A stretch of 64,000 nucleotides of DNA from positions 41,325 through 105,324 of the IMG/VR virus record IMGVR_UViG_3300033148_006239. One strand, given 5' to 3'. Positions within the stretch are counted from its first letter, which is position 1; each line of letters begins with the position of its first letter. Position numbers and translations under genes: made by a program. Of the stretch, positions 952 through 64,000 are shown piece by piece. The stretch comes from a virus. Below the pieces are notes generated by a model. It worked only from the letters and a program-made list of their open reading frames with translations. It had not been told where the DNA came from and did not search any database.

Positions 952-1162
952 CAATACCTGCTTTTGTTACTGTAAAATCTAATTTAATTTTTTCAATTAT
1001 TTTTTTTGGTTTAATATAAATATCAACATAATTATCATTATAATTATCGTTATCGTTTAAATCAAATTCAAAATCATCAATAATATCTTCATCTTTTAAG
1101 TCTTGCAAAAGCAATAATATTTTAATTTGAAATATAAAAAAATCAATATTAAATTTACTCAT
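944..1162 (-). CDS. Hypothetical acidic small protein
   Basis: A 72-residue protein that I do not recognise. Its middle is very acidic and Asn/Asp-rich (residues 24-45), preceded by a short hydrophobic N-terminal stretch and followed by a Lys-rich tail. It overlaps the end of the UDG-like gene upstream and the start of the kinase-like gene downstream by 8 nt each, so it is translated as part of the same polycistron. An AAGG Shine-Dalgarno lies about 9 nt before the ATG. No function is proposed. Confidence 0.55.
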   Translation of the reverse strand: MSKFNIDFFIFQIKILLLLQDLKDEDIIDDFEFDLNDNDNYNDNYVDIYIKPKKIIEKIKLDFTVTKAGIDE

Positions 1163-1733
1163 TAGTGTATGCCTTATAAAGAGTATCTAATATATGTTTA
1201 TAATCATCTACACTCATTCCACCATAAGATAAAACATAATTAGGATGATTTATTGGAAAAACAATTGCTTCTCTATCATTATATTCAAATATAGATTCTT
1301 TATATAATTCTGCATCAAAAAATTTAGCAACTTGTTTACCTAAAGGAACGATTACTTTTGGTTTTAAAATCTGTATTTCTTTTAATAGAAATCTATTACC
1401 ACATTTATTAATTAATCTTTCATCAATCTTATTATTTTTTGTACTGCATTTAACAATATTTGTTATTGTACATTCATTTAAATAATTGATCATTCTTAAA
1501 AATTCTAATCCAAAACCTCCATCAAAAGCAAACGTACCATATATCCCTCTAACATTTGATGGATTCATACCAACAAATAAGAAATTATTTCCTATATGTA
1601 ATCCTTTTAATTTACCAAACCCATATCTTATATCTTCTGTATTAAATTCTTCATCGCATAAATTTTTACATCGTTTACATGTGCATAATCCGTAATAAAG
1701 TTTGTGAATCTTACTTTTCATATTTACTTTCAT
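1155..1733 (-). CDS. Uracil-DNA glycosylase superfamily protein (family 4/5-like)
   Basis: Probable base-excision or uracil-recognition protein. Landmarks are a Cys-rich N-terminus (C17, C19, C22, C26), FVGMNPS at 53-59 where family 4 enzymes have GEAPG, TNIVKC at 91-96, a further Cys at 111, and HPNYVLSYGG at about 163-172 matching the C-terminal HPS motif. The C19/C22 and C96/C111 pairs fit the 4Fe-4S cluster of family 4 UDGs. The motif 1 sequence is not canonical, so activity may be altered; uracil-sensing or a non-catalytic role is possible. The gene follows the dUTPase-HAD fusion by a 4-nt overlap, and both act on uracil-containing nucleotides. Length of 192 residues is normal for the family. 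Confidence 0.75.
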   Translation of the reverse strand: MKVNMKSKIHKLYYGLCTCKRCKNLCDEEFNTEDIRYGFGKLKGLHIGNNFLFVGMNPSNVRGIYGTFAFDGGFGLEFLRMINYLNECTITNIVKCSTKNNKIDERLINKCGNRFLLKEIQILKPKVIVPLGKQVAKFFDAELYKESIFEYNDREAIVFPINHPNYVLSYGGMSVDDYKHILDTLYKAYTNE

Positions 1734-4283: not shown

Positions 4284-5420
4284 TTAAATATCAATACCAG
4301 TTTCAAGTTTCACAAATTCAACTTCTGATTTTTTTTCAAGTTTTTTATGATCTCTCTTAATTGAATTAACTAATTTAATCATTGCTTTACTCTTCTTTAA
4401 TCCTGCACAAATCATATACCCAGTAATTTTATCGACATTACTAGAATAGAAATAACTAACATACGAATTTGGAGTTCGAGTCATCACTTCAATTCTTTTA
4501 GAAATTAATTCTGCTTTTGTATTCATTGTATGTTTATCACTTCCCTTAGGTAAGACAATTGCCAATATATAATTCGTTGTTGTATTTATATCAAATGATC
4601 CATAATACATTGATTCTGTATTTAATTTACGTATAAACTCATCATCAATACCTTCATCCAATTGAAAATATCTGAAATCAACAAACCCAGAATTTTTATT
4701 ATAAAGTACCCTTTTTAAATCAGACATATCTATATTCGCATTATTACCACTTAAAAAGTCATAATTTGATTTAAATGTAAAATCATAAAACATTTTTAAA
4801 GGATTAATAATGTGATAATTAATTCTATCATAATGTGTTTTCTTCATTTTAAATCTATCATATAGTAATTGATTATCCGCAAGAATAACATTGACATAAT
4901 CAATATCTTTCAAAAAGATATTTTCAATAAACCAATTAATTAATTTTATTGTATTGTTTTTTCTCTTAATACCTTCATTCTTTTTTGGAGTTGAAATAAT
5001 TACTAATATTTTTTTATTTAATTCAACCAATAGCTCAACAATAACTCTTGTAATTCCATTTCCACTACCCCCACCACCTGATGTATAAATAATTATATAT
5101 TCATCATCATCAACAATTCTTGGACCGCATATTTCTCCATCGACATCTTCATATTTTTCAAATAAAAATTTATTTATTTTATCAATCTTATTTCTAGCTA
5201 TCATTTCACCTTTATCAGGATCATTTCCAGTTCCATCTACACCTAAAAGCATAACATCTTCAATACTAAATAATTTGATATTATCAACTGCAGTATTAGA
5301 TACAACAGTTTTTGTATTTTTAAAAAATTTACTATGTTGCTTTGCAAGCATAGTCCCACATTGACCATTACCAAATATTTTATCACTTATGGTTAAATCT
5401 AAAAACTGTTCCATTTCCAT
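4284..5420 (-). CDS. Tubulin/FtsZ superfamily GTPase (PhuZ/TubZ-like phage tubulin)
   Basis: A phage-encoded tubulin-like filament protein of 378 residues. The GTP-binding landmarks occur in the family's order: T1 loop FGNGQCG (16-22), T3 loop GVDGTGNDPDKGE (60-72), the tubulin signature GGGGSGNG (115-122), T5 STPKKNEG (143-150), a T6-like Asn in ADNQ (181-184), and the T7 catalytic loop GNNANIDMSD (225-234) with N229, D231 and D234 matching FtsZ/tubulin NxDxxD. Residues after about 340 form a charged helix and tail like the polymer-contacting C-terminus of PhuZ and TubZ. In other phages such filaments centre or segregate phage DNA or the phage nucleus. The gene follows the primase and a 101-residue ORF by 1 nt. 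Confidence 0.92.
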   Translation of the reverse strand: MEMEQFLDLTISDKIFGNGQCGTMLAKQHSKFFKNTKTVVSNTAVDNIKLFSIEDVMLLGVDGTGNDPDKGEMIARNKIDKINKFLFEKYEDVDGEICGPRIVDDDEYIIIYTSGGGGSGNGITRVIVELLVELNKKILVIISTPKKNEGIKRKNNTIKLINWFIENIFLKDIDYVNVILADNQLLYDRFKMKKTHYDRINYHIINPLKMFYDFTFKSNYDFLSGNNANIDMSDLKRVLYNKNSGFVDFRYFQLDEGIDDEFIRKLNTESMYYGSFDINTTTNYILAIVLPKGSDKHTMNTKAELISKRIEVMTRTPNSYVSYFYSSNVDKITGYMICAGLKKSKAMIKLVNSIKRDHKKLEKKSEVEFVKLETGIDI

Positions 5421-5421
5421 A

Positions 5422-5727
5422 TCAATTACCCATTTTTTGAATTTCTTTTAGCGATTCAAAGACACTTTTAAATCTTTCATCGTTTTCAATTAAAAGCTCA
5501 AACATTTCATCTTCATATTGAGTCATCAAGTCGTTAACACTCTTATAGACTTCATTAAAAGTTTTAATTCTTGATAGATATCTAATATCTTGAGATTTCA
5601 TTGGATCATTATTTTGACTAGGTTCAACATGACTTTTAAAATATAAAAAATCATTAATCATTGACAAATAATTAACTATATTTATTTTCAATATCAAATT
5701 TTGAGTATCCATAGTATTATCCAACAT
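5422..5727 (-). CDS. Hypothetical helical protein encoded just upstream of the tubulin gene
   Basis: A protein of up to 101 residues, predicted by eye to be mostly helical and acidic at its C-terminus; I do not recognise it. It sits 1 nt upstream of the tubulin-like gene and overlaps the primase gene end. TubZ systems carry small partner proteins (TubR, TubY) next to the GTPase gene, so a partner role is conceivable, but no DNA-binding helix-turn-helix is evident. The ATG at 5727 has AAAGG directly abutting it. The in-frame ATG at 5712 has GGA seven bases upstream and is the likelier start. Confidence 0.6.
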   Translation of the reverse strand: MLDNTMDTQNLILKINIVNYLSMINDFLYFKSHVEPSQNNDPMKSQDIRYLSRIKTFNEVYKSVNDLMTQYEDEMFELLIENDERFKSVFESLKEIQKMGN

Positions 5728-6652
5728 CCTTTAGTTTAATTTGTAAATCTTCATAACTTAATTCATCTGGATCACAATCTATTTTAATCTTCTTTACAAA
5801 GAAATAATTACTAAGTTTTGAATAAATTTGACACAAATTTTTATATTTAAACTCATCTTCATAAACATCACCATCAAACATTATATAAATATTATCAATA
5901 TCTAATTTAGTCAATTTATCAAATTGAATAGAAGACATAATTATACCTAATAATGCGATTGCATTATAACCATATTGTTGTAAATAAATAGCATCAAATT
6001 CACCTTCAACAATAACAATATAATCTGTTATCTCTTCTATATTGTTTAATCCAAATAACGCATGTTTAGAATCACTATCTTTTAATTTTATTGCTTTGGG
6101 TTTTCTACCGTAAATAGATCTAGCATCATATGATATTAATCTATTTTTTTCATCATAGATGGGAATAATTATTCTATTTGATAAAACACCTTTATCACAA
6201 CATTTAATATTAAAAATATCAATATACTCTTCGATTATTCCTCTATCGATTAAATAATCTTTATACTTATCATACGGTTCTTTAAATTTTTCTAAAATTA
6301 ATTCATCGTAAATCTTAACATATTCATAATTATTAAACTTTTTATTATATAAATCAATAATATCATCTAGCTTAATCTCATCAATATATTGAGATCTTAA
6401 TTTATCAAGTACTGTATAAATACTGCATTCATCTAAATAAGATAATAATTTTATTAAATTACCATTTTCACCACACGACCAGCATTGAAATAATCCTCTT
6501 TTATAAGAAAAATCAATTCTAATTCCAAATGAAGGATTTGATTCACCATGATATGGACAACAAATCATCAAATTCTGATTAGATACTTTTCCCTCATATC
6601 CTCGTTGTGAAAGTTCATTAATAATATCAATATTTCTTAAATCAATATTCAT
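5717..6652 (-). CDS. DNA primase, DnaG-like (CHC2 zinc finger plus TOPRIM)
   Basis: Synthesises RNA primers for phage replication. The N-terminal zinc-binding domain has C32-P-Y-H35 and C57-W-S-C60-G in the CHC2 pattern, with the conserved FQCWSCGENGN segment. The middle is a primase core. A TOPRIM domain follows (IVIVEGEFDAIYL with the catalytic Glu, then MFDGDVYEDEF with the DxD-type metal site). At about 311 residues it is compact and lacks a long C-terminal helicase-interaction domain. I start at the ATG at 6652; a TTG lies one codon upstream. Helicase, loader and exonuclease genes upstream complete the replication set. Confidence 0.92.
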   Translation of the reverse strand: MNIDLRNIDIINELSQRGYEGKVSNQNLMICCPYHGESNPSFGIRIDFSYKRGLFQCWSCGENGNLIKLLSYLDECSIYTVLDKLRSQYIDEIKLDDIIDLYNKKFNNYEYVKIYDELILEKFKEPYDKYKDYLIDRGIIEEYIDIFNIKCCDKGVLSNRIIIPIYDEKNRLISYDARSIYGRKPKAIKLKDSDSKHALFGLNNIEEITDYIVIVEGEFDAIYLQQYGYNAIALLGIIMSSIQFDKLTKLDIDNIYIMFDGDVYEDEFKYKNLCQIYSKLSNYFFVKKIKIDCDPDELSYEDLQIKLKDVG

Positions 6653-6658
6653 CAATAA

Positions 6659-6850
6659 TTATTTTTTAACTAATTCATTATTTATATTTTTTAAAATATT
6701 TGCTAAAAAGCCAGGATGAGATTGATCATATTCATGCAATATATTTAGTGTTCTATCAATTTCATAGCAACATTTAGCGCAAATATCTTTAGTTATATTA
6801 AACTGATGTTCAAACATATCACCACATCTTTTACATTTAATTTTATCCAT
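6659..6850 (-). CDS. Small CxxC zinc-finger protein
   Basis: A 63-residue protein with two CxxC pairs (KCKRCGDMF and ICAKCCYEI), forming a probable single zinc ribbon, followed by a helical tail. It lies between the Lar-like gene and the primase gene in the same direction. Function unknown. Confidence 0.65.
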   Translation of the reverse strand: MDKIKCKRCGDMFEHQFNITKDICAKCCYEIDRTLNILHEYDQSHPGFLANILKNINNELVKK

Positions 6851-6887
6851 ATTACTTATCTATAATATATCCTAATAATTATTCAAA

Positions 6888-7106
6888 CTAATCAATTGAA
6901 CGATTATTCCATTGTTCAACTAACTCACTTTTAGCTTCTTTATGAGTAGTCGCATTAATTGGATTATAAATTAACGTCGCGTTACAATCCAAACACTCAA
7001 TCCAATATTTATAATATAATTTATCACCACTATGCATCGCATTTCTTCTTATTTTTAAATTCATACTCTTACAAAGAATGTTTGGACATGGCTGTAATTC
7101 TTTCAT
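6888..7106 (-). CDS. Lar-like zinc-ribbon protein (restriction alleviation family pattern)
   Basis: A 72-residue protein with the layout of the Lar family: LQPCPNILCKS near the N-terminus, a second pair ECLDC, then a Thr/Glu-rich helix ending WNNR. In Rac prophage, Lar moderates type I restriction. Many phage members are uncharacterised, so the anti-restriction role is an inference from family resemblance. A strong AGAGGT Shine-Dalgarno precedes the ATG, and the gene sits directly downstream of the structured RNA candidate. Confidence 0.65.
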   Translation of the reverse strand: MKELQPCPNILCKSMNLKIRRNAMHSGDKLYYKYWIECLDCNATLIYNPINATTHKEAKSELVEQWNNRSID

Positions 7107-7133
7107 TCTATACCTCTATATAATTTTAATACC

Positions 7134-7288
7134 ATACACCCGCCAGGATTACATACCCAGACTACATCTCACGGTAAATGCAGACTGCCGCTCTTTTTTA
7201 AGCCTTATACCACTCCTCGGGGACCGTACCCCCATTGAAGAGACTGAAAACCGAAACTGCACATGCGTTACTTCCGCCACGGGTGCAT
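7134..7288 (-). ncRNA. GC-rich structured RNA candidate
   Basis: This intergenic stretch has roughly even base composition in a very AT-rich genome. Read on the minus strand, its ends pair: ATGCACCCG (7280-7288) with CGGGTGTAT (7134-7142), nine pairs including one G-U. Inside are a hairpin GGGG...CCCC nested in a CTCTTC/GAGGAG helix, a GCG/CGC hairpin near the 5' end, and a possible long-range TGCAG/CTGCA pairing. It lies between the membrane/coiled-coil gene and the Lar-like gene. A segment resembles a class II tRNA D-arm (GAGTGGTATAAGGC), but no proper T-arm or anticodon arm follows. Strand assignment follows the neighbours. A 43-codon GTG-initiated ORF also crosses it; I favour RNA because of the terminal helix. 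Confidence 0.55.
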
Positions 7289-7292
7289 TAAA

Positions 7293-7727
7293 TTATTCTT
7301 CTTGTTCAGGTAACATAATAAATATCTCATCTATCTCATTGATAATATCACCTTCATATGACATCCAATCTGCTACCTTTTTAACTAAAACACCTAATCT
7401 TTGAATATTTAATTCAAGATATTCTATTCTTGAATCAAGACCTTCAATCTGTTTATCTTGATCTTCAGCCGTAGTAAGTAAAAGTTCACTATCACCTAAT
7501 AGTGAATCATATCTTTTTTTTACTTTACTTAATTCTTTTTCATTTATAGCAATTTCATCTTTTAAAGTATTAATTAGTTTATTAGCATCATTTAATTCAA
7601 TGTTTAATTGTGCTAATTCTTCTTTACCAGAACATTGAGATGTAACACATATCAATACTCCTACAAAAAATAATATTACTATTAATAGTGTCATATCTAT
7701 AATTTTTTTTCTTGTCTTGTAATTCAT
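7293..7727 (-). CDS. Membrane-anchored coiled-coil protein, i-spanin-like
   Basis: A 144-residue protein with a basic N-terminus, one transmembrane segment (about residues 11-31) and a long heptad-rich coiled coil (about 35-115), ending in an acidic tail. The topology is that of Rz-type inner-membrane spanins or of membrane-tethered phage accessory proteins. It is far from the lysis cassette at 12.5-15 kb, which has its own candidate, so the role is open. A strong GGAGGG Shine-Dalgarno precedes the ATG at 7727, adjacent to the exonuclease stop. Confidence 0.6.
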   Translation of the reverse strand: MNYKTRKKIIDMTLLIVILFFVGVLICVTSQCSGKEELAQLNIELNDANKLINTLKDEIAINEKELSKVKKRYDSLLGDSELLLTTAEDQDKQIEGLDSRIEYLELNIQRLGVLVKKVADWMSYEGDIINEIDEIFIMLPEQEE

Positions 7728-19506: not shown

Positions 19507-21173
19507 TATAGTGCCAATTGAGTTCCATCTTTATTAAATGCAGTCAAAGTAATATTAATCAATCTTGGAATTGATAATTGATCAATTGCTAAATCATCTA
19601 CAGGACCATCAAGTAAAACTTTAGTTACACCATAACCTCTAAAATTTTCTATTAAAGCTATTATTCTACTTCTTGGTATTTCTTCAAGTTCTGTACCCCA
19701 ATTTATTGAAAAACTTCCATCAATTTTTTTTGATGTAAAACCAAAAGATGTTTCAAGAGATCCTCTAATTAAGTTAATTGTTGATAACCACGGAGAATTA
19801 TTTTCAAAAAAAACTCTAGCGTCAATATCCCAATCTTGATAAATTGCTTCTGTTATAATTGTATTAGACGCGACATTACCAAATGTTGGTCTTTTTGATG
19901 CATCCGTATAAATATCAATAATACTATTCTTTAAAGTATCATCTACTGCTATTCCTATTCCAGGAACAACATAAATTAGAACTTGAAATTCATCTAAAGA
20001 GAGTGGAATATCTTTTTCTCTAGTATATGGATTGTCAATAACAAATGCTCTTTGTATATCTGCTAAAGCAACTGCGTTTATTTCAAATTCTTCTCTTGTA
20101 ATACTTCTATTTGATGACGCATTCCAAACTGATATATTTTTTCTTCCACTTTCAATTGTTTCTCTATTTTCTCCACCAGTCGGAGCAAATCTATTTGTTA
20201 CAGTTAAATCATTTACTGATTGTGCTTCAGAATCAAATATTGTACTTGTAATCTTATTTATTTGTCCAGTTTGAATACTATTAGCACCAATACCACCACC
20301 AAACGCGTATCTAACTAAGATTTGTTCTTCAGGAATTTTTCCATAATCGTCATTATTGCCAAATACAACAAACATATTTTCATCTTGAGTATATTCTAAT
20401 GCATAAAATTCTTCACCTGGTGGAGCAAGCAATATTGATTCTATTAAGGTCCATAATTTATTACCAACTGTGACTACGACTGTATCATTTATAACTCCTA
20501 TATTATTTAAAGGATATCTTTGATCTTTAATTCCAATTTGACCATTAAATAAATTACTTGTACTAATATGATTTCTAGCATTAACAGTAATAGATCTTGA
20601 TCCTGCTAAAATTACTGCATATTGTAATGTTTCAAATTTACGTAAACCATCAGCAGATGACACAACAGTTTTTTCTGGAATAACAACATCAAAACTATGT
20701 ACTGTATCTAATTTAAATAACAAATTTACAATTGCAGACTTTCTTCCTTTTAAAGCATATAAATATTCTTGTGCTTTCCAAATTAAAGACTCATAATTAT
20801 TTAGTGTAGGTAATGTATTATTAGTAAATATTTGATCACCTAAATAAAATAATTTATCTAATTGAGCAGACATTATCTCTAAAATAAGTGTTCCGACTTC
20901 TCTTTTATTAAAATTAGTCCACTCAGGAAATCTTTTACTTGCGGCGTCTATAGATTCAAGCATAATACCATAAAATTCTTTTTCAAAGAATGATGTTTTA
21001 ATAGGTTCAATACTATCTAAACTCGTTGATAAATCTCTAACTGAACTAATAACATTAAATACTAATTGCTTATCGTCTTCTGTAACAATATCTTCAGGAG
21101 AATTAATATGATTAATATCATTAATTTTTAGAATTGATTCTAATGAATTTTTAACTATTTCACCTGGTTTCAT
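19506..21173 (-). CDS. Baseplate J-like wedge protein (gpJ/gp6 family)
   Basis: A 555-residue wedge component. Recognisable features are the N-terminal FPEWTNFNKREVGTLILEIMSAQLDKLFYLGDQIFTN region (Baseplate_J proteins have WT-----DPG-xLLE--A---D-L--Y-D), a central beta region starting at KGRKSAIVNL, and a C-terminal WDIDARVFF plus RLINITL. It lies between the gp25-like and gpI-like genes as in Mu, P2 and PBSX. It forms part of the baseplate periphery with these proteins. Confidence 0.85.
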   Translation of the reverse strand: MKPGEIVKNSLESILKINDINHINSPEDIVTEDDKQLVFNVISSVRDLSTSLDSIEPIKTSFFEKEFYGIMLESIDAASKRFPEWTNFNKREVGTLILEIMSAQLDKLFYLGDQIFTNNTLPTLNNYESLIWKAQEYLYALKGRKSAIVNLLFKLDTVHSFDVVIPEKTVVSSADGLRKFETLQYAVILAGSRSITVNARNHISTSNLFNGQIGIKDQRYPLNNIGVINDTVVVTVGNKLWTLIESILLAPPGEEFYALEYTQDENMFVVFGNNDDYGKIPEEQILVRYAFGGGIGANSIQTGQINKITSTIFDSEAQSVNDLTVTNRFAPTGGENRETIESGRKNISVWNASSNRSITREEFEINAVALADIQRAFVIDNPYTREKDIPLSLDEFQVLIYVVPGIGIAVDDTLKNSIIDIYTDASKRPTFGNVASNTIITEAIYQDWDIDARVFFENNSPWLSTINLIRGSLETSFGFTSKKIDGSFSINWGTELEEIPRSRIIALIENFRGYGVTKVLLDGPVDDLAIDQLSIPRLINITLTAFNKDGTQLAL

Positions 21174-21574
21174 TAAGCTACCCTCTTTAGTTCAAATCCA
21201 CCATCTGTTCTTGTAATCGTCAATGTATTTACAATTTCAGGATTTTGTATATCTTTCCATTTTATATCAACAAATAAATCTTCTTTTTGATAATCAGTTA
21301 TTACGTCAATTAATTCAATTTCAGGAACAAATTCAAGTAAAGGTTCTTGAATCCATTGAAATAATAAATTATCCATCAAAGCAGGATCAGAATTATGATA
21401 AGGTACTAAATGTAATTTGCTTCCAAATTCAGGAAACATTTCTCTACTTCCAATTGGTGTTAATAATGTTACAGCAATAGCAGATTCTAATTCATCTAAT
21501 CGTGTTATATCAGAAAAGCTACCACTATTGAAATTAAATGGATATGTAATTGTAACAGTAGCATTACCTGACAT
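21173..21574 (-). CDS. gp25-like baseplate wedge protein (GPW/gp25 family)
   Basis: A 133-residue protein with the hallmarks of the gp25/gpW family: LDELESAIAVTLLTPIGSREMFPEFGSKL, then a segment ending WIQEPLLEFVPEIEL. The ExxI--L-T--GER-M-PEFGS pattern is conserved among contractile tail baseplates. Position is just upstream of the gpJ-like gene (1-nt overlap). Length is typical. Confidence 0.92.
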   Translation of the reverse strand: MSGNATVTITYPFNFNSGSFSDITRLDELESAIAVTLLTPIGSREMFPEFGSKLHLVPYHNSDPALMDNLLFQWIQEPLLEFVPEIELIDVITDYQKEDLFVDIKWKDIQNPEIVNTLTITRTDGGFELKRVA

Positions 21575-21575
21575 A

Positions 21576-23345
21576 TTAACCCTTTACTATATCAACAAAT
21601 TCTGAATCTAATCCATCTAAATCGAACGAATTTAAAGAATTAAGTACTTGAGTAACTTCTTTAAACTCTGAAATTGCTTGTTTTGTTTGCTCTTTATCTT
21701 CATCTTCTTTTATAAATAATTCAATAAAATTTATTAAAGAAGTTATATTTGCAGGATCTAAACCACCAGCAACTAAAAAAATTCCTCCAATATAATTAGA
21801 ATCTCTTTTTTGTTTATTACTAATTCCATTTGTATTTGCGATATCACTAATAAATTTATTTATTCCACCAAGTTGTGGTTGAATTGTTTTTATAACTAAA
21901 AATTCGCCATTAATAGACAATGTTAATTTATCCAATAAAATTAATATTCTATTTCTTATTGAATCAACTACGTTTGTTACAGTTTCTATTTTTTCTGATA
22001 GTGAATTTGAAATTGCATCAAGAAGATTTTCTTTTCTACCTATTTGTTCATATAGACTATCAATAAAAAATTTTATTTCATTTTTTAATGTTTCTATTTC
22101 AGGAATTAACCATTGTAAAGTTGTTCCAAACCAATCACCATCACCAAAATTTCCAAAAAATCTTTTCTTTAAGAAATCGACACCATCAGTTCTTTGTAAT
22201 GGAACAATTTGGCTTGTTTCATTTGTATTAATTATTTGTGTTGCATCAAAATTACCAAAAGTTGTTCTATCGATATGTCTTCCGAGTAAATCAGTAAATA
22301 CTAATGTTTCAATTAACGATAAAGATTCTCGCAATTTAGCTGCAACTTGTGGAGCTGTATAAAGTTCTATTGCTGCTGTATATTCATGACCATATAAAAT
22401 AGGTATATCATCAATACGATTAATATCTAGTTCTTTTTCACCAATATTTTTATATATACCATCTTCGGGTAAATTAAGATCAACTAATATATCTGTAACT
22501 TTATTTGATTCAATATCTCTAGCTTTTATTGATGTAACTTTAATCCAATGTGGAAAACTCAATTTATCCCATTCTAATGATAATGAATTTTTATTAAAAA
22601 TACTTGTAAATCTGAATTTTAAATTCGCATCAATTTCTTTTTGTACTTGTATATTTGAAAATGTTATAAAATTTATATCAAATAATCTCAAAAATTCTTT
22701 TAATTGTGCAGTTACTTCATCGATACCTGGTGCCATTGCTAAAATAGCAATTCCACCAACATATTCATTAGAATTAAAACTAGGAATGTAATCTCTTTCA
22801 AATTCATTATCTGTATTAAATGATTCTCTAAATCTGTTCCAAAACGAATCAAATTTTGTAGAAGAATCAATTTCTTTATTATCGTCTGTCATAGCACGTG
22901 TAATTCTACCTGTTTCATCTCTTGAAACACTTATTGTATCTTCTGCTTGAATATTTATATCAATTGGTGATTTATACATTATATGCATTCCACCAGAACC
23001 ACCAATTTTATCAATAGTATTATTTATAATAGTTCTTGAAGTATCAATTAGTTTTTCTGCGGGATCAATTACTTTTCCACCAATAAATGTTTCTATTTTA
23101 TTAATTATTTCAACACCAACTCTAGTTGGTTCGTATATTATTTCAATTAATCCTTTTGCTGCGTTAATAACTTCTTCTAATTCATTTAAAAAGCTCAAAT
23201 CTGGTGCAATTATCTTTTTCCAATTTTTATCTTGATCTGCCTTTGAATTATTTTTATTATCTTCTAAAAATTTCTCAGCATTTTCATTTGTATATAGTTC
23301 TTGTTTAAAATTGACATGTGTTAAAGTTTCAAATTCTTTAAGCAT
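21576..23345 (-). CDS. Uncharacterised baseplate-region structural protein with an internal repeat
   Basis: A 589-residue protein in the baseplate cluster that I do not recognise. Two segments resemble each other: NEYVGGIAILAMAPGID followed by a helix, and SNYIGGIFLVAGGLDPAN followed by a helix, each introducing a short amphipathic stretch. This suggests a duplicated domain. Long helical stretches flank them (for example around ETLKNEIKFFIDSLYEQIG). It is tightly packed between the 645-residue protein and the gp25-like gene, so a virion role is likely. Confidence 0.6.
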   Translation of the reverse strand: MLKEFETLTHVNFKQELYTNENAEKFLEDNKNNSKADQDKNWKKIIAPDLSFLNELEEVINAAKGLIEIIYEPTRVGVEIINKIETFIGGKVIDPAEKLIDTSRTIINNTIDKIGGSGGMHIMYKSPIDINIQAEDTISVSRDETGRITRAMTDDNKEIDSSTKFDSFWNRFRESFNTDNEFERDYIPSFNSNEYVGGIAILAMAPGIDEVTAQLKEFLRLFDINFITFSNIQVQKEIDANLKFRFTSIFNKNSLSLEWDKLSFPHWIKVTSIKARDIESNKVTDILVDLNLPEDGIYKNIGEKELDINRIDDIPILYGHEYTAAIELYTAPQVAAKLRESLSLIETLVFTDLLGRHIDRTTFGNFDATQIINTNETSQIVPLQRTDGVDFLKKRFFGNFGDGDWFGTTLQWLIPEIETLKNEIKFFIDSLYEQIGRKENLLDAISNSLSEKIETVTNVVDSIRNRILILLDKLTLSINGEFLVIKTIQPQLGGINKFISDIANTNGISNKQKRDSNYIGGIFLVAGGLDPANITSLINFIELFIKEDEDKEQTKQAISEFKEVTQVLNSLNSFDLDGLDSEFVDIVKG

Positions 23346-25275
23346 AATCTAAAATTGTTTGTATATCATCAGAGAAATTCTTTTCTAACGTAACAAACTC
23401 GTCATCATTATATGTAATCTCTTGTGATAATTGCCAAGAATTATCACCATTGTTATATTCATAATATAATACTCTAGTGATTAAATTGGATTCATTATTT
23501 TTATAAAAGTATTCATATTTATTTACTTGATTTTTATTTTCATATTCGATTAATGAAATTAACTTATAATTACTATTAATAAATGAATAAATTTTTTCAT
23601 TAATAATAGTTCTATTTGTATCATAAAAAATAATTTTTTCAATAATATTATTTGATAATATTATTTCTTTTGTTCCTATATGTAGATTACTTAAATAAAC
23701 ATCATAATTTATCATTTGATTAATTATAGTATCATAAAAAATAACATATTTTAAATCATCATTATCCCAAATATAACATTCAATATAAACAACTTTACCA
23801 TTTTCATAATGATCAATTTGTAATGGAGTTTCTTTATTATCATCTTTATATTTATATATCAATCCTTTAGAAACTCCATCGGTTATATGTGATGTAATTA
23901 TATAATTAATTCTGCCATCACTTAAAGCGTTTGTTTCTGTTGTAACATCTCCACCTGTTTCATATAATATAAAACTTTCAAGTTTACCTTTGATTGTATA
24001 ATATCTTTCTCTTGTACGAATATCATTTTGAAAATCTTCATCAAATTTATCAACACTTTTATTAGGATTAAAAAGTAAATCATATAATATACTAATATCA
24101 TCTGATGATTCTTCATAGGCAGTCTCTGCGGTTTCGTCAAGAAAGAAAAATCTACCATCGTCTTTCATAGCCTCTAAAGAATTTTCAGGATTTTTGATTA
24201 AAATTTCAATATAAACATTAATTAATGCATTATCTATTACTTCATTGAAAAAATTTTGTAAATCTTCATTTTCAAAAAAGTTAAAAATATTATATGTTTC
24301 ACCTTTATCATCGTTTAAAATTTGTTCTGGATCTAAATCCCAATATTCAACAAAATAATTAACATATTCAATTTCATTATGTGGAATTGATACAAATTTC
24401 TTTGATCTGATTTTATATTTTTGTGACGGATGTCCTAGTGTTTTAGGTGCAAATAATTCTTCAATCGAAATACTATTAGCTCTATTAAAAAATTCAACCG
24501 TATTGTTTGGAAAATTACCAATAACATTATTAATTTCACTAACTTCGTATTCAGTATACGAAATTATACGTTCATTAACTAATTCATTTGAATCGTCAAA
24601 AATTAATCGCCAATTTTCTTCTTTTTTAATAGTAAACTGTGTTTCATTACCCGATTCAATTTCATCATAAATGAATTTTTTATAACCAAATAACTCATTA
24701 CCTGCGTAATTATCTATTCTATATAATAAAAGATCTTCAACATCAACAACTTCATGTATATTTTTAACAAAATCAACTGCAAATTCTACTTCGTCAAATA
24801 ATATATTTCCTTCAGAATCTTCACCTGTAAAATTCCATAAATGAATTTCTTGTATTCCCATATAAAAATAATGAGAAGCATTTTGAATATTTCCTTCAGA
24901 ATCAACAGCTATAAATGATTTACCAACATATTTTCCATTTTCATCAATATTTTTTACTATAATAAAATTTTCATCTGATAAATAATCAATTTCAAACTTT
25001 GGTCTACCTAATTCATCATATACTCTTTCGTTTGAAATTCTATATGAGATTTGTTGATTATCGTCATCTGCAACAATTTCAAAAAATCTATCTGCTATTT
25101 TTATTCCATCATCATTAAATAATGTTTCTCTATTGTTTAATGAAATTATTTCATCTTCTGAAACAGGTTCTTCTTCAGAAAAAGTATAATTTTCAACTAA
25201 ATACTCTTCTAATAGTTTAAAATCAGTAATTGTTTTAATTGTTTTTTTATTTAAAAAATCAACTTTCGTTGCCAT
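23338..25275 (-). CDS. Uncharacterised beta-rich structural protein
   Basis: A 645-residue, acidic, Tyr/Asn/Asp-rich protein that I do not recognise. Repeated short strand-turn units in its second half (for example LIYKYKDDNKET, YENGKVVYIECYI, KIIFYDTNRTI, NKYEYFYKNNE) resemble strand repeats of the RHS/MORN kind, suggesting an elongated beta structure. It overlaps the downstream 589-residue gene by 8 nt. Location within the baseplate genes suggests a tail accessory or side spike. Confidence 0.55.
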   Translation of the reverse strand: MATKVDFLNKKTIKTITDFKLLEEYLVENYTFSEEEPVSEDEIISLNNRETLFNDDGIKIADRFFEIVADDDNQQISYRISNERVYDELGRPKFEIDYLSDENFIIVKNIDENGKYVGKSFIAVDSEGNIQNASHYFYMGIQEIHLWNFTGEDSEGNILFDEVEFAVDFVKNIHEVVDVEDLLLYRIDNYAGNELFGYKKFIYDEIESGNETQFTIKKEENWRLIFDDSNELVNERIISYTEYEVSEINNVIGNFPNNTVEFFNRANSISIEELFAPKTLGHPSQKYKIRSKKFVSIPHNEIEYVNYFVEYWDLDPEQILNDDKGETYNIFNFFENEDLQNFFNEVIDNALINVYIEILIKNPENSLEAMKDDGRFFFLDETAETAYEESSDDISILYDLLFNPNKSVDKFDEDFQNDIRTRERYYTIKGKLESFILYETGGDVTTETNALSDGRINYIITSHITDGVSKGLIYKYKDDNKETPLQIDHYENGKVVYIECYIWDNDDLKYVIFYDTIINQMINYDVYLSNLHIGTKEIILSNNIIEKIIFYDTNRTIINEKIYSFINSNYKLISLIEYENKNQVNKYEYFYKNNESNLITRVLYYEYNNGDNSWQLSQEITYNDDEFVTLEKNFSDDIQTILDYA

Positions 25276-26394: not shown

Positions 26395-29300
26395 TAATGA
26401 GATTCTCCTCCATCAACACTTCTAATTACAATGTCACGAATTCTATTTCCAGATAAGTTACCAGCAACAACATCTTCCGCTAATAAACGTTCATATTCAA
26501 GTGCAATATTTCTTTCGTTTCCTCTTTTTAGAACATTAACAAAAATTTTATCAAATGTTTCTTGATCACTTTGAATTTTTATTACATCATCATTAGGAAA
26601 AAAATCAGTAAATTTAAAAGCTATTCCTTTATCAGCATTATAAACTTGTCTAAAATATTCTTTAGCAGCTCCAAAATTCATAGATGCGGTAGTTTCACGT
26701 TGACTTTGTCCAAGTTGAGTAACACCAGTAGGAGCATTACCAGCAGATTGTCCACACGCAACAATATGTTGTGCAAAAAAATTAATACTTGAAAATGGAC
26801 CACGTGTGAGAGAATCGGCTTTATTGTTGTGTTTACCTCTTGTTGCCAATACTAAGCCTGTTATATAACACGAAACATATCTTTTAATATCATTGTCTGT
26901 TAAATTATCAACACCTATTACTTCTAAATTTCTATCTTCTACTATTAAATGATTATGAACATGTGCTTCTAAAGTATCTTTAAATATTTGAAAAAATGCA
27001 TCTTGAGCATTTTGAGTAATACCGGCTCTACGAGTAATATGCGCAGTTCTATCTCTAGCTTCTGGCTCGAGCCATCCTATTCCGTTTGCTAATTCAGTCG
27101 CTGTAGGTGCTCCTCCGATCCATATTTGTCTATTCCAATCATATTGTCCTTTTATATAATCTTCTTGAGTAGCCTGAGCTAAAGATTCTTCAAATATTTT
27201 ACCACAATCAAATTGATGATCTTCGACTTGAGATGATGCTTGAGTATCGCCTGGTTGCTTTACTACATGACTATAAGATGTTGTTCTAAAATCATTACAA
27301 AAAAGATCTTCATAAAAAATTTTTTTAATTGTAGCTACTGATGTGGTATTATATTCATAAAGTTCTTTATATGTTTCTACAGGAAAATCATTTGCTATTA
27401 AATTTAATTCTTCTTCAGTAAATTCACTTTCTACAGATGCACAAGGTAAAATTATCTTTAGATGATAACGTTCACCGCATTGTCTATTAAATCTTGCAAT
27501 AATATCAAAATACTCTTGTCTTTTTTCCAAAAGTAATTCTTTTATTCTACGAAATTCTTGTGCTCCGGCAACTGAAAATTCAGCTTTATTTACTGTAGAA
27601 AGATGTTCAATATAAAGCCAAAGCCCTTCAGCTTTTTTAATAAATGATTCTCTAGCTGTTTTACAATCTGTCACTATTTGATCTTCTACGTCAAATTCAT
27701 CACTTACTTTTTTCCATTCTTTTATTTTTTTAATTAATCCCGCTGTAATTAATCCCGCTGGATGCGCTTCTGGTCTTAGATTTTTACCATCAAATAATGT
27801 TGAATTTGATATACATAAAATCTCTGTTTCATATCCATTATTGTCAATATTATGATTTGCTTCTATAATATACCATTTTGTATCATAAGCACCAGTACCA
27901 ATCAATTCACAAACTTGTCTAGATTTTATTTGAGGATTACCAACAACCGTAAATCTTAAAGACATTGTAGAACTTAATTCTCTAAATCTTTTTCCAAAAA
28001 GTCTTCCCCACAATTCTTTACCATTATCTGTTATTATTCTATCACTTTTTTCAGATGTTTCAGTAAGAAAATCAATATGTGCACTTTTTTCTAAAAGATA
28101 AGCTTGTTGTCTAAAACTAGCAGCTTTTAATCTTAAACTTTTTTGAAAATCGCCTAAAAATTGCCACTCTTTATCATAAACATCTTCATCTAAATCTGAT
28201 ATTTGAGCAATTAAATCTACTTGATGTGTTTTACCTATTGTATCAAGCTCACGCTCTGTTGGAAAACGTATCGAACTAACAACTTGTACAAAAGCATCTG
28301 AAAATCTAAAAAGTTTATTTACTTCTTGTTGAGTTTTTTCATCTAATCTTCCAAGGGGTATTGAATTACCTTCATCTGATTTTCGTTCATAATAAACGAA
28401 ATTTAAGTCAATAAATGCTTCTCCTAATGAACCTTTATTACCTGCCCCATGTATATCTTGTAAATGCCTTATCATAAACGATTCTTCACCAGTTTGTGTA
28501 TAATACGGATCTGAATATCTGAATCTTGTTGTTACAACTTTGCCTGTTACAGGATCTATTTCTTCTGCTTTTGTATAAATTAATTTATCTCTAGTATCAC
28601 TAGAAGGAGCATCTGATTTTAATATAGGTCCACCATAAACAACATCTACACTTGATCCGTCTAATGCGGCAAACTTAGATCTTACTGCTTGTTCTGGATC
28701 AATATCTACTTCATAATTAAATTTCCATGTTGATTGACGTAAGAAATCTCTTGGCTTAAAATATAAAATATAATGCTGATTATCTGTTACACTTTCATCT
28801 TCTAACCAGACTTGATAACCATAATTATCAGCAAGATTCTGCAAAAAACATAAAACAGTCATTTGTGAATCATAATCAAGAGTTATTGGTCTAACAGGTT
28901 GGCCATCTAATTCAACTAATTCTTCGATATCAATATGATCATCTAAAAAATCATCATTATAAGATCCATCATTTCTAGGTGAACTTATTCTAAAAATATG
29001 TCTTGCTACTTCTGTAACAATTTCTTTTAAAGACATAGAAGCAAATTCCGCTTGTCTTTCACTAAAAGAAACTGGCATTCCAACTTTTACAAATTTTGAT
29101 GGTGCTAATTCGTATGCATTTATTATAGCTTCTCTTAAACCATCAAAATTTAATACTTTAAAATGTTGCCAATTTGATAATAAATCATCATACCCAATTT
29201 TAGCTCTAAAAACGGTTCCATGCATAACAATATCTTGAAAATCTTTAAAATCTGGAGCTTTAAACATTGCTAAATCTGAATTATCAAACATCAATGTTAA

Positions 29301-52190: not shown

Positions 52191-53771
52191 TTACCCTCCA
52201 ATAAGCTGAACTGAACTTGTTTTACTTTCATTTTTTCTCATTTCATAAGCTCTTAATTCAGCACATATATATCTCAATGAATCAACGGCGTGATCATCAC
52301 ATGAAGGATCAGGAAACTCTGAATTAGCAATAGAATTAGAACCTTCAAGATCTTGACATTCTCTAATTGTATTTGTGCAATGTTCTAAAACAATTAAATT
52401 TGGTATATCTAATCCAGGATTCATCTCTAAAAATTGTCTCACTGAATCATATCCAAATTCTCTATCGTTTATTGCACCAACAAGATTTATAGAATCATCT
52501 CTGTCTTTTATTTCTTTCATATATGTAGGACCAGATGGATCACCAACAACAACATCAAATCTATCATTTCTCCAATTATGCCTGTCTTCTTCTTGTAAAT
52601 ATTCAAATTTACCAAGGAACGATTTAGCGATATCTGATGCCTTTAAATATTTTCTATAAAATTCTCTATATATAACCAATGTTCCTTGTGGAGATAATGC
52701 ACCACCTAAAAATACAGCAGGATCTCTATATCCAAAGTCTAATCCACTAATCTTTAACCAATCACTTGGTATTAATTCAGTCAAAAGATCGTTTAAAGGT
52801 TTATTTGCGTCATATAATATTCCATGAAACTCTGCAAATTTCTCTATTGACCATATATGACAATCTTTAAATTCTAAGAATTGACCCTCAGAGATAGGTG
52901 TCTTACATTCCCATTGATTATCCCATGTCTTCTGATCTAATATTGCAGCTTTTTCAATTAAATCATCGATGCTATAATACCCATCACACCCTTTAGCTCT
53001 TCCTTGACATTTCTCAATCAATGGACATACTTCACATTTTCTACCAACACACTTTTCTAAGACTTCGAAAATTCCCCATTTATAAACTTTAATTCCAAGA
53101 CGTTTTGCTTCTTTATAGACTGTGTTTACTACTCCATTACTTTTCTTTCGTGTAGATAGTAATCTATCTTGTGCTTTATATCTATTATCGGACTTTGTCA
53201 TTGAAAAAGCTTCTTGAAGTAATTCCCAAGACATTAACTCAATCTCATCTGCATTGTTTTTATGAGGATGAGGACCATTATATCCTTCAGGAGATGCAGT
53301 AATAATTCTAATAGATGCACCATTTTTCATTTTTACAAGATACGGAACTCTTCTTGAAAATTCTATTTGCTCATTTATCAGTTTTATCTTTTTAAATTGT
53401 TCTAAATACTTGAACATTAAATTTGCTTGTTCAACAACTGCTCCGCTACTTGTTATTTCTATTTCAGGCTTAAAAAGTAAATCTAAAATATTAACAATTG
53501 ACAAATTTCTTGTTTTACCACCATTTCTATTAGCAATTGCTAAGCACTTAGAATACCTTTGAAAGAATGAATCAGAAACAAAATCAAATGGTACATCGTG
53601 ACCATCTATAATAACTTTATTTGGAACTTTAAAATTTAAAAAGATTCTTATAAAGTCAGCTAAGTCTTCATCAGTAGTTATACCATTAGTAATATAATAC
53701 TGAAATAGATCTTTTCTATTATCTTCAAGTGAAGACAATACTGTATTTGCAGTTGTTTTATCAATTTCCAT
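52191..53771 (-). CDS. Terminase large subunit
   Basis: DNA-packaging motor of 526 residues. ATPase: LAIANRNGGKTRNL (Walker A, 77-90; NxGKT), ADEIELM as Walker B (DE). Nuclease: SGLDFGYRDPAVFLGG (metal Asp in LDxGxxDP), VVGDPSGPTYMKEI and CDDHAVDSLRYI (RNase H-like final acid). A Cys cluster at about 248-268 (CVGRKCEVCPLIEKC-x5-C) probably binds a metal. The family relates to P22/T4-type large terminases. Precedes the portal gene. Confidence 0.92.
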   Translation of the reverse strand: MEIDKTTANTVLSSLEDNRKDLFQYYITNGITTDEDLADFIRIFLNFKVPNKVIIDGHDVPFDFVSDSFFQRYSKCLAIANRNGGKTRNLSIVNILDLLFKPEIEITSSGAVVEQANLMFKYLEQFKKIKLINEQIEFSRRVPYLVKMKNGASIRIITASPEGYNGPHPHKNNADEIELMSWELLQEAFSMTKSDNRYKAQDRLLSTRKKSNGVVNTVYKEAKRLGIKVYKWGIFEVLEKCVGRKCEVCPLIEKCQGRAKGCDGYYSIDDLIEKAAILDQKTWDNQWECKTPISEGQFLEFKDCHIWSIEKFAEFHGILYDANKPLNDLLTELIPSDWLKISGLDFGYRDPAVFLGGALSPQGTLVIYREFYRKYLKASDIAKSFLGKFEYLQEEDRHNWRNDRFDVVVGDPSGPTYMKEIKDRDDSINLVGAINDREFGYDSVRQFLEMNPGLDIPNLIVLEHCTNTIRECQDLEGSNSIANSEFPDPSCDDHAVDSLRYICAELRAYEMRKNESKTSSVQLIGG

Positions 53772-54268
53772 TATTCTGTTTTAAAAGTTGATTCAAAGTT
53801 TCTAGCCATTGTGTGACCATCATTAAATTTAACTATACCATAAGATTCTGAACTCTTATCAATTAATAATATATATTCATCGTCGGCAGTCAAATTTGAA
53901 AATGTAAATGTAAGTGTCTTATCATTATTTGACCAAGTCAATGCACCGCTAACTGCACCTGAACTAGTACCAGTTAATGAAAAAGCAGCTTCTGTTGTAG
54001 TTGTATCCATTTTATGACTAAAACTGACATATACAAACGTAATCGCAGGATCAATTTTTGTTGCACTATCGTGAGGATTGACATATACAACTTTAGGAAT
54101 TTTCAATCCTCTTTTTAAAACTTCTTCTAATTGTTTTTTTCGACCGTATGCAAAATTCAAATCTAGTTTTTTTAAATCTACATCTTCTTGTTTTCTTTCT
54201 TCTATAAGAGCATCAACTGCTTTGACTGATTTTGCACTCAATACTTTTAATTGAAAAGATAATGCCAT
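53771..54268 (-). CDS. Ig-like (SbsA/Big_5-type) domain protein, paralogue 1
   Basis: A 165-residue protein: an N-terminal helical part (about 1-62) and a C-terminal Ig-like domain beginning PKVVYVNPHD and running through AITFVYVSFSHKM, AAFSLTGTSSGAVSGALTW, KTLTFTFSNLTADDEYIL and FESTFKTE, the SbsA/Big_5 pattern. It is paralogous to the next gene, with nearly identical C-terminal halves. Likely a virion surface decoration or attachment protein. Located between small and large terminase genes. Confidence 0.75.
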   Translation of the reverse strand: MALSFQLKVLSAKSVKAVDALIEERKQEDVDLKKLDLNFAYGRKKQLEEVLKRGLKIPKVVYVNPHDSATKIDPAITFVYVSFSHKMDTTTTEAAFSLTGTSSGAVSGALTWSNNDKTLTFTFSNLTADDEYILLIDKSSESYGIVKFNDGHTMARNFESTFKTE

Positions 54269-54307: not shown

Positions 54308-54787
54308 CTATGCTGTTTTAAATGTTGATTCAAAGCTTCTAGCCATTGTATGACCACTTGATGATTCAGCAGTTTCTGCAATAATAAGTGTATATTCATC
54401 GTCGGCAGTCAAATTTGAAAATGTAAATGTAAGTGTTTTATCACTGTTTGACCACGTTAAAGCACCACTGACTGCACCAGAGCTAGCTCCCGTTAATGAA
54501 AAAGCAGCTTCTGCCGTAGTCTGATCCATTATTTGATTAAAACTGACATATATAAATGTAATTGCTGGATCAATTTTTGTTTTATCATCATAAGGATCAA
54601 CATATGCAACTTCAGGTATTAAAAACTTTTTTGTAATTAAATTTACTAATTCTTTTCTTTTATCAAATGCAACATTTAATTGAGTACTTGTATCAAATTC
54701 AGATAATTTTCTAAATTCTAATATAAGTTCATCAAGCTGTTTCACACTTGTAGTAGCAGCAACTGCAATTTCAAAAGCACTAGCCAT
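54308..54787 (-). CDS. Ig-like (SbsA/Big_5-type) domain protein, paralogue 2
   Basis: A 159-residue tandem paralogue of the preceding gene. Both share DPAITF-YVSF, AAFSLTG-SSGAVSGALTWSN-DKTLTFTFSNLTADDEY and HTMAR-FESTFKT. The N-terminal helical part is more divergent. Duplicated Ig-like genes like this usually encode capsid or tail decoration. It sits 39 nt upstream of paralogue 1. Confidence 0.75.
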   Translation of the reverse strand: MASAFEIAVAATTSVKQLDELILEFRKLSEFDTSTQLNVAFDKRKELVNLITKKFLIPEVAYVDPYDDKTKIDPAITFIYVSFNQIMDQTTAEAAFSLTGASSGAVSGALTWSNSDKTLTFTFSNLTADDEYTLIIAETAESSSGHTMARSFESTFKTA

Positions 54788-61820: not shown

Positions 61821-61958
61821 ATGTTTTCATTTTGTCGAGTACTACTCGATATTTCAACAATTTTAAAAATGAACGGGAGGTTCGGTTGTCTTGATTATGT
61901 TAAGATTTTCAAATGTGTCATACTTAATATTTCAACAATTTTAAAAATGAACGTGTGA
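61821..61958 (+). CDS. Possible plus-strand small ORF spanning two repeat copies
   Basis: A 45-codon ORF on the plus strand with AAGGA five bases before its ATG. Repeats 1 and 2 both encode ISTILKMN within it. Coding on this strand would be exceptional here, and the third repeat is out of frame, so the repeats may be DNA sites rather than protein. Confidence 0.25.
   Translation: MFSFCRVLLDISTILKMNGRFGCLDYVKIFKCVILNISTILKMNV
61835..61849. repeat. Perfect 15-bp palindrome next to the direct repeats
   Basis: TCGAGTA-C-TACTCGA, an odd-length perfect inverted repeat, abuts the first 27-bp repeat. It could be a protein-binding site (initiator or repressor) or a short cruciform. Confidence 0.5.
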
Positions 61959-61991
61959 AACTTAATATTTCAGCAATTTTAAAAATGAACG
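61849..61991. repeat. Three 27-bp direct repeats (iteron-like)
   Basis: Repeats at 61849-61875, 61927-61953 and 61965-61991 share ATATTTCARCAATTTTAAAAATGAACG; the third has G in place of A once. Spacings are 78 and 38 bases (about 2 x 39 and 1 x 38). They stand directly beside the A/T-only tract, resembling iterons next to a DNA-unwinding element. Confidence 0.6.
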
Positions 61992-62055
61992 TGATATGGG
62001 GGAAGAGGGGTGGGTAAGTAATTATATAAATATATATATAACCACCATATAGGGG

Positions 62056-62700
62056 TTTTTTAAATTAAAATTTTTTAATTATATATATATTAATAATTTA
62101 TATAATATTAATTATTTAATTATTTAATTATATATATAATAATAATTTATATAAATATATAATATTATTATAATTATATTAATAATTTATAATATTAATT
62201 AAATTAATAATTTAAAATTATTTAATTATTATATATTTATATAATAATTAAATAATATAAATATAATTATATATATAATATATATTTATATAATAAATAA
62301 TTTTAAATTAATTAAATATATAATATATAATAACTTATATAATAATTAAATAATATAAATATAATTATATATATAATATATAATATATAAAAATAATTTT
62401 TATAAATATATATATATTAATAATTAAATAATAATAATATAATTTATTATATATTATATATTTATAAAAATTATTAAATATATTTATATAAATTATTAAA
62501 TAATAATAAATAATAAATAATATAATATATATTAATATAATTAATAATATAATATATATTTATATAATAATAAATATTAAATAATATAAATTATTATATA
62601 TATATAATTTATAAATATAATTAATTATATATATATAAATTATTAATAATATTATAATTATAAAATAAAAAATTATTTATTATATAATTATAATAAAAAT
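62056..62700. other. A/T-only tract (about 645 bp)
   Basis: From the last G at 62055 to 62700 the sequence consists of A and T only, apart from one C at about 62334. It is built of TATATA, AATAATT and TTAATTA blocks. No ORF or SD is present. Such a tract melts easily and fits a DNA-unwinding element. A polymorphic or misassembled low-complexity region is also possible. Confidence 0.7.
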
Positions 62701-62812
62701 TCCCCACAAAAAATAATTTTTAACCAACTTAATTTATATCAAACCAATAACTACTCTCAAACCTTTTTTATACCATCATCTCACAACTATTATATATTAT
62801 CTTATAATCTTA

Positions 62813-63205
62813 AAAAAAAATTTTTTTCATCTCTCTCTCTACATATCTTACTTATATACTCCCCATATAAAATTAATATCTACACTCTAAACATTAACAC
62901 CCCTTATATCATCTCAAACACCTCTACAATCAATCTTTCTCTACTCCCTATACTTTACCCCTACCCTATAATTAACTACTCTTAAAATCAATCCTCATCC
63001 AATCTCAAACATATTAACATATTAACAACTCTTCATATATCATCTCTATTTAAAAAAAATTTTTTTCATTTTTTATCAAAAAAATAAAATATAATATTTC
63101 TTTAATCTACACACCAACTTCTCTTATATACTCCCTATAAAAAATTAATATCTACACACCATTAACTATATCAAAACATTTAAAAACATTAATCTACACA
63201 CCAAC
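62813..63205. repeat. Imperfect direct repeats with ATCTACAC motifs in the G-less region
   Basis: Related blocks occur near 62813-62900 and 63051-63165: a poly-A/poly-T junction (A8-9 T7) followed by CTTATATACTCCCnATA and AATTAATATCTACAC. ATCTACAC itself occurs at 62878, 63105, 63150, 63192, 63426 and 63596. TTAATCTACACACCAAC is identical at 63103 and 63190. They may be binding sites or remnants of duplication. The stretch 62701-63276 has no other clear gene. Confidence 0.5.
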
Positions 63206-63276
63206 AATTTTAAACAAAAAAAAATATATATCATATTTCTACAATATATATTTTATCCTTCTCCCACCATCCTAAT

Positions 63277-63402
63277 CTAAAATATATTTATCTTTATTTC
63301 CTCATCTCCCATTATACACTTACTTATCACAATCACTATATTTTCAAATCTTAACACTATCACTTCACACATCTCTACTTCATCAAAATAATTTTCTATC
63401 AT
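63277..63402 (-). CDS. Small C-free gene (41 aa)
   Basis: A 41-codon ORF in the G-less region with GGAGGT four bases before its ATG and TAG at its end. The product starts MIENYFDEVEMCEV and is hydrophobic in the middle (IVIVIS). No C occurs in the coding strand, so only A/G/T codons are used. Homology cannot be judged at this length. Confidence 0.5.
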   Translation of the reverse strand: MIENYFDEVEMCEVIVLRFENIVIVISKCIMGDEEIKINIF

Positions 63403-63472
63403 ATTTACCTCCAATAAATATTTTAATCTACACAAACATTACTTTATTTTTCCCACCAACCCACCCCATAAA

Positions 63473-63898
63473 TTATTTATCACCTTCCTTTTCATTCATA
63501 TTTTTTAACTCTTCTTTCATCCTTACAATCTCTTTCTCTAATCTTTCTTTCCTTAACTCTCCACTTACTCCCCCCAACTCTCTTAAATAACTATTATCTA
63601 CACCTTTTTCAATATTATTTATATAATATAAATAATAATTACTACTTCTATAAACATTCCATTCTTCATTAAACAAACTTTCACACAATTCTTTCTTATC
63701 CTTCCCATCTTTCAACCCTTTAATTAAATATTCATACACATATTTAATCTTCACTTTATCCAACTTATCTTTACTCCCACTCACTCCCTTATCCTTCACA
63801 ATCACTTTTTCTTTCAATTCTTTTACTTCTTTCTCTAATTCTTTCACTACTACACTCTTTTCTAAATCACTTTTTAAAACCTTATCATTCTTTTTCAT
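63473..63898 (-). CDS. C-free gene encoding a coiled-coil/helical protein (141 aa)
   Basis: The coding strand contains no C. The protein accordingly lacks Ala, His, Pro, Gln and Thr entirely, uses AGT for Ser and AGA/AGG for Arg. Start is the ATG at 63898 with GGAGG upstream; a TTG lies four codons earlier. The N-terminal ~50 residues are Lys/Glu coiled coil. The middle (YEYLIKGLKDGKDKKELCESL, then NEEWNVYRSSNYYLYY) resembles a compact helix-turn-helix. The C-terminus is again coiled coil. Possible DNA-binding or assembly protein; not recognised. Confidence 0.65.
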   Translation of the reverse strand: MKKNDKVLKSDLEKSVVVKELEKEVKELKEKVIVKDKGVSGSKDKLDKVKIKYVYEYLIKGLKDGKDKKELCESLFNEEWNVYRSSNYYLYYINNIEKGVDNSYLRELGGVSGELRKERLEKEIVRMKEELKNMNEKEGDK

Positions 63899-64000
63899 AT
63901 TTTCCTCCAAAACATTTTAAATCCTCACTTTATCCCATCACACCCACAATCAAATCCTTTTTTTAACCTCCATCCATAAACATAATAAAACATATTAAAA

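Follow-up and report, generated by a model that had tools for sequence, protein, structure and literature searches.

A 2.3-kb stretch of a tailed phage genome that lacks cytosine on its gene-carrying strand and probably marks a replication start or a C-free message

In the mitochondrial D-loop one strand is exposed for long periods, and C-to-T together with A-to-G changes are found there, in the neighbourhood of the origin. Mitochondrial strands are biased in composition, but we know of none that goes without a base over kilobases, and the minimal origin of phage T4, of about 100 bp, is to our knowledge not depleted of any base. Rho acts against R-loops. The T4 origins oriF and oriG combine a promoter with an A+T-rich unwinding element, at which the RNA persists in an R-loop and the non-template strand stays open, and regions of transcriptional divergence in T4 coincide with shifts in skew (PMC3016281). 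RNA without C is in turn a deficient substrate for Rho (PMC9908020). Here we describe a stretch of 2.3 kb in a phage genome in which one strand lacks C altogether, and which probably marks either a replication start or a message that is selected to be C-free.

The window, a stretch of 64,000 nucleotides, comprises positions 41,325-105,324 of a virus record of 105,324 bases (IMGVR_UViG_3300033148_006239), and its right end is the end of the contig. The preliminary description placed the last G of the plus strand at 62055 with none up to 64000, and base counts bear this out: the 1,945 b from 62056 to 64000 contain 793 A, 337 C, 815 T and no G. The same description was right to name C as the base that is absent from the gene-carrying, non-template strand, and C on the plus strand, which it called common after 62700, is common only from 62702 onward. 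The first 114 b of the contig are identical to its last 114 b, so the contig closes into a circle, and the G-free run passes the circular join. Its far end, which had been left to be sought, was found at contig base 485, making the run larger than was claimed, namely 2,316 b (945 A, 937 T, 434 C and no G). It consists of two parts, 646 bp of A and T with a single C, and a further 1,670 bp (window 62702-64000 plus contig 115-485) whose minus strand is 38% A, 26% G and 36% T with no C. The probability of such a run is about 10^-111 at the G frequency of the window, and the chance that all 434 G/C positions are C, given the window's own skew, is about 10^-88. Elsewhere in the genome G-free runs reach at most 90 b, and 950 kb of DNA from other phages, with two loci chosen for such runs set aside, has no C- or G-free run longer than 76 b.

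Table 1. Features of the C-free stretch and its left flank (window positions unless marked as contig).
Feature	Position	Strand	Remark
C-free minus-strand stretch, part within the window	62056..64000	-	base counts and circular overlap
C-free strand that contains G	62702..64000	-	base composition
ORF A, 141 aa plus stop, C-free codons throughout	63473..63898	- (leftward)	
Ribosome-binding site of ORF A, GGAGG, GGAGGAAAATATG	63904..63908	-	perfect site
ORF B (probable gene), 41 aa plus stop, C-free	63277..63402	- (leftward)	
Ribosome-binding site of ORF B, GGAGG, GGAGGTAAATATG	63408..63412	-	perfect site
A/T-only element, 646 bp, one C at 62334; candidate DNA-unwinding element	62056..62701	.	sequence
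Three 38-nt direct repeats, core TTTCARCAATTTTAAAAATGAACG, iteron-like	61834, 61912, 61950 (61834..61987)	+	just outside the run
G clusters, GGGGGAAGAGGGGTGGGTAAG, just left of the A/T-only element	61998..62018	+ (opposite strand)	
35-nt repeat, copy 1, GTGTAGATATTAATTTTATATGGGGAGTATATAAG (minus-strand reading)	62851..62885	-	
35-nt repeat, copy 2, GTGTAGATATTAATTTTTTATAGGGAGTATATAAG	63123..63157	-	
17-nt repeat GTTGGTGTGTAGATTAA, two identical copies	63102..63118 and 63189-63205	-	
A7-8T7-8 palindromes, three in the genome, all within the G-free run	62813..62830, 63052, contig 234	.	

Read from left to right, the locus presents minus-strand genes up to 61700, the 38-nt repeats, the G clusters, the A/T-only element and the C-free zone (Table 1). 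The A/T-only element holds imperfect repeats of about 49, 98 and 138 bp. The 35-nt repeats, the 17-nt repeats and the A7-8T7-8 palindromes are all restricted to the region, the 17-nt sequence being absent from the rest of the phage beyond its two copies, and a search of Rfam gave no match. The right edge of the run coincides exactly with the 3' foot of a hairpin (contig 503-485) that resembles a terminator of leftward transcription; its stem includes G-U pairs and is not strong. Past the hairpin there are 1.5 kb without a convincing gene, and then rightward genes from contig position 1980. It was also considered that the A/T-only part is the overlap of two converging C-free zones, which was rejected, as the C-poor zone of the plus strand begins only at 62047.

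ORF A is well supported as a genuine gene. It exceeds every ORF in 3,000 composition-matched simulations, and ORF A and ORF B each begin at one of the only two GGAGG-N(4-9)-ATG sites in the run. Its protein lacks Ala, Pro, Thr, His and Gln—the product, if the stretch is real, of a gene written in an alphabet without C—and is rich in lysine and glutamate; it is predicted with low confidence to be helical (structure model with pLDDT 55). A paralogue with ordinary C content is encoded in the same phage on the plus strand (contig 5615-6052; phmmer E = 6e-6 among 150-odd phage proteins, blastp 37% over 52 residues). This paralogue is rich in Gln and Thr, and abrupt C-to-T conversion would put stops into a gene of this kind, which argues that ORF A evolved within the C-free state, or adapted to it, over time. 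Together with the length of ORF A relative to the simulated ORFs, the paralogue also indicates that the C-free state is old. ORF B is probably a second gene, its ribosome-binding site being the sole support for this. It has no significant homologue, its paralogy to genes of the plus arm is not significant, and family and fold searches gave nothing for either ORF.

Outside the run the sense strand of the minus-strand genes is 40% A, 10% C, 17% G and 32% T. The GC content is 26% inside the run against 28% outside, and inside it is present entirely as G. The preliminary description read the direction of the bias as loss of C from the non-template strand, and simple loss by C-to-T change is not supported: for the non-coding part neither pure C-to-T change (chi2 about 46) nor simple exclusion of C (chi2 41) gives a good fit, and since GC is kept, all of it as G, with an intact reading frame, pure C-to-T decay is rejected. 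Of the five simple models for the non-coding part, much better fits come from C-to-T with 20% A-to-G (chi2 6.6), the best, and from C-to-G (chi2 10.7); the former is the pattern left when the two amino bases of a single exposed strand deaminate. At the four-fold sites of ORF A, in a small sample, G is favoured and T is not (10 G, 9 A and 4 T, versus 5-9% G elsewhere in the phage). Hypermutation by a deaminase would give an excess of C-to-T with the other bases unchanged, and stops from Gln and Arg codons; G is raised here and the ORF of 141 aa is intact. By our estimate, mutation alone would need a loss of C about 2,000-fold over its gain to arrive at zero, and selection of about 1e-4 per C would suffice; a mixture of the two is plausible. 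Enzymes typical of a T-even-like phage that replaces its cytosine were also looked for, and the thymidylate-synthase fold/hydroxymethylase family PF00303 and the C5-methylase family PF00145 are both absent from the phage. A converted donor copy was sought by aligning the C-free strand, bisulfite-style, to the C-to-T converted genome, and no copy was found.

The phage itself is a 105-kb, contractile-tailed phage that encodes a UvsX-like recombinase, an XPB-like SF2 helicase, a 5'-3' exonuclease, DnaB and, beside it, a DnaA-domain ATPase that resembles a helicase loader. Several further genes are of note in their own right. A uracil-DNA glycosylase of the thermophile family-4 type (window 1155-1733, minus strand; PF03167; best solved relative Thermus UDG, 1ui0) adjoins a gene with dUTPase_2 and deoxynucleotidase-like domains and a thymidylate-kinase-like gene, and a GTPase of the Tubulin/FtsZ family (PF00091) is encoded at window 4284-5420 on the minus strand. 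An ORF of 1,499 aa (contig 20715-25214, minus strand), judged by eye, reads as a ribonucleotide reductase split by two intein-like insertions that carry HNH-like parts. Tandem duplicate genes on the minus strand (window 53771-54268 and 54308-54787), 84% identical in DNA over about 240 b, adjoin the large terminase and by eye contain an Ig-like repeat domain. A plus-strand gene at contig 6781-7659 carries a short DSVRDSVWNSV-like repeat that gives rise to a G-rich patch.

The reading that we favour, tentatively and at less than an even chance, is an origin of the R-loop or D-loop type, in which deamination and selection together have removed C from the displaced, RNA-like strand. The locus would be a natural module of a tailed phage whose map is circular (the genome being circular or circularly permuted), set in the origin-like region where the gene arms diverge. 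The leftward transcription unit, with ORF A and probably ORF B, would enter the A/T-only element beside the iteron-like repeats, and the leftward RNA or the nascent leading strand would form an R-loop or D-loop by remaining paired with the plus strand, which is free of G. The A/T-only element would act as an unwinding element that opens easily, like that of the T4 R-loop origins, and a C-free transcript, which forms no G-C self-pairs and would escape Rho, may thereby stay available for hybridising. The displaced minus strand would repeatedly become single-stranded, its cytosines and in part its adenines would deaminate, and any C that reappeared would be selected against, so that long evolution could lead to zero C and to genes adapted to C-free codons. 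If the stretch is real, the phage offers a natural experiment at an origin on strand exposure, deamination or selection against C in RNA.

An origin had been suggested before, and the suggestion stands in so far as it accords with the divergent arms, the cumulative GC-skew minimum, the direct repeats and the A/T-only element, though simple loss of C by C-to-T change is not supported. The region lies between the minus-strand and the plus-strand genes, at the minimum of the cumulative GC skew. The strand skew of the genome tracks gene direction and the skew at four-fold sites is weak outside the run, which makes the minimum poor evidence for an origin; the transcriptional divergence and switch of skew seen at T4-type origins are likewise present, though the skew mostly tracks gene direction. 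At iteron-type origins an initiator protein binds several direct repeats; here there are three iteron-like repeats of 38 nt, and no initiator was identified. Promoter-like sites are no more frequent in the region than in shuffled sequences. The best fit of the non-coding composition, to changes of both amino bases on one exposed strand, speaks for the origin, as do the sharp C-free zone found once in the genome, the A/T-only element with the repeats beside it, and the recombination and replication genes named above. Against it, spontaneous deamination alone would by our estimate require C-to-T to be raised several hundred fold to leave 0 C in 2,316 positions, and by itself it does not predict the depletion of T and the excess of G at the four-fold sites of ORF A. 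Selection based on RNA structure or on Rho tolerates an occasional C, and alone it therefore does not explain a count of exactly zero.

It is possible, if rather doubtful, that a promoter, the genes and the A/T-only end form a long-maintained unit selected for wholly C-free RNA or exposed DNA. If this is true, the unit would function at times during infection when any nucleic acid with C in it is cut, terminated or impossible to make, and a natural C-free cassette of this kind could reveal a step of defence or host takeover that targets C.

Somewhat unlikely is selection for a C-free transcript as such, in which each C in the RNA would be costly during infection through depletion of CTP, its replacement by a chain terminator, a C-specific ribonuclease or Rho, while the unit would still be expressed and would supply, in ORF A and ORF B, genes that the phage requires in that situation. 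This would account for an entire unit without C in which G is kept or raised, for an upstream border exactly at the 3' side of the terminator-like hairpin, and for an intact ORF A with a perfect GGAGG, ORF B having a GGAGG too. The small coefficient per C estimated above would be enough, and RNA without C is known to escape Rho (PMC9908020). However, C is also missing from about 45 nt ahead of the likely start and from the long A/T-only part, both of which are perhaps not transcribed, and only a single unit in the genome shows the absence of C.

We consider it unlikely that a strand-directed enzyme, such as a cytidine deaminase of host or phage, acts on the exposed strand at a very high rate so that local genes survive only with C-free codons. 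Such an enzyme would explain exactly zero C in coding and non-coding sequence alike, with sharp edges, and the importance of uracil for this phage is shown by its family-4-type uracil-DNA glycosylase and its protein with a dUTPase_2 domain. However, the cytidine-deaminase families PF00383 and PF14437 are absent from the phage, in a search that novel kinds would escape, pure C-to-T predicts the wrong composition, and the high G is unexplained unless A-to-G is added. An unconverted sister sequence, sought in IMG/VR with a pattern that reads T as Y, gave no match.

Selection on single-stranded DNA is very improbable. T4 endonuclease IV is a C-specific single-strand endonuclease, and a comparable nuclease of phage or host that cuts C exposed at the origin would penalise C on a single strand, whether the sequence is coding or not, and leave G free to rise, but that nuclease is purely conjectural here.

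It is more improbable still that bisulfite-converted, synthetic or mis-assembled DNA has been fused to a genuine phage contig. The base make-up does match that of a converted strand, and the interior of the run and its right junction are supported by a single assembly. A second, separately assembled contig (IMGVR 3300033143_007280) departs from this one at 2 SNPs and a 15-b indel; it matches exactly through the left junction and into the run for 241 b, ending there within the A/T-only part. These are the only three differences between the two contigs of the phage over 54 kb, and the indel, of five codons, lies at window 27731-27745 in a tail protein of 1,076 aa. The left junction is thus common to a distinct strain, the C-free sequence runs seamlessly over the circular join, the GC content is retained as G, and conversion of a Gln-containing gene would not leave an intact ORF with a ribosome-binding site and a paralogue. 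From the shared junction, the unbroken join and the long ORF with its GGAGG sites an artefact is judged unlikely.

Least credible of all is that C is missing by chance from an ordinary intergenic tract, low in complexity or rich in AT, of the kind that many origins have: an AT-rich viral contig does have 323 b without C and with 12 G, and Belliella and its relatives have G/A/T-rich C-free tracts of about 190-200 b, but these are repetitive or nearly A/T-only and extend over tens to hundreds of bases, while the stretch described here has 434 G and a significant ORF in 2,316 b, at a chance of about 1e-88.

Searches with TerL, capsid, ligase and DNA polymerase found no near relative of the phage, the best matches having about 30-34% identity, and the phage, plasmid and IMG/VR collections contained no close relative at the sensitivity used. 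Pattern scans for C-free genes in IMG/VR and 85k genomes, with patterns that cover part of the possible sequence space, returned only A/T-rich or simple-repeat matches, and in 60 genomes of the Belliella family the matches were confined to repeats or to G/A/T-rich tracts about 200 b long. In two viral contigs an AT-rich stretch, with the 323 b that lack C, contains three A8T7 palindromes with flanking repeats and is possibly an origin. The open papers searched describe no natural, gene-bearing sequence on the kilobase scale in which one strand lacks a base. Relative to these collections and the open literature, the feature is new in kind as a sequence phenomenon.

Among known sequences, the tracts of Belliella aquatica and its relatives, which are rich in AAGGATGA-like words, are likewise C-free on one strand over about 200 b, G-rich and intergenic, and may be a minor, repetitive analogue; they are however repetitive, have no recognised gene and are ten times shorter than the phage run. 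The C-less and G-less cassettes of the laboratory also yield a transcript that lacks one base, and C-less RNA is poorly released by Rho (PMC9908020), but these cassettes are artificial and of about 0.1 kb, whereas the phage stretch is natural, 2.3 kb long and protein-coding. With the mitochondrial D-loop the locus would share a long-exposed strand with C-to-T and A-to-G changes near an origin, as is proposed for the phage. With oriF and oriG of T4 the proposed origin would share divergent transcription and an A+T-rich unwinding element, and a UvsX-like recombinase is encoded here too; in this phage the RNA, the R-loop and the origin activity are putative. If the origin reading is right, the locus would carry a known kind of origin to an extreme.
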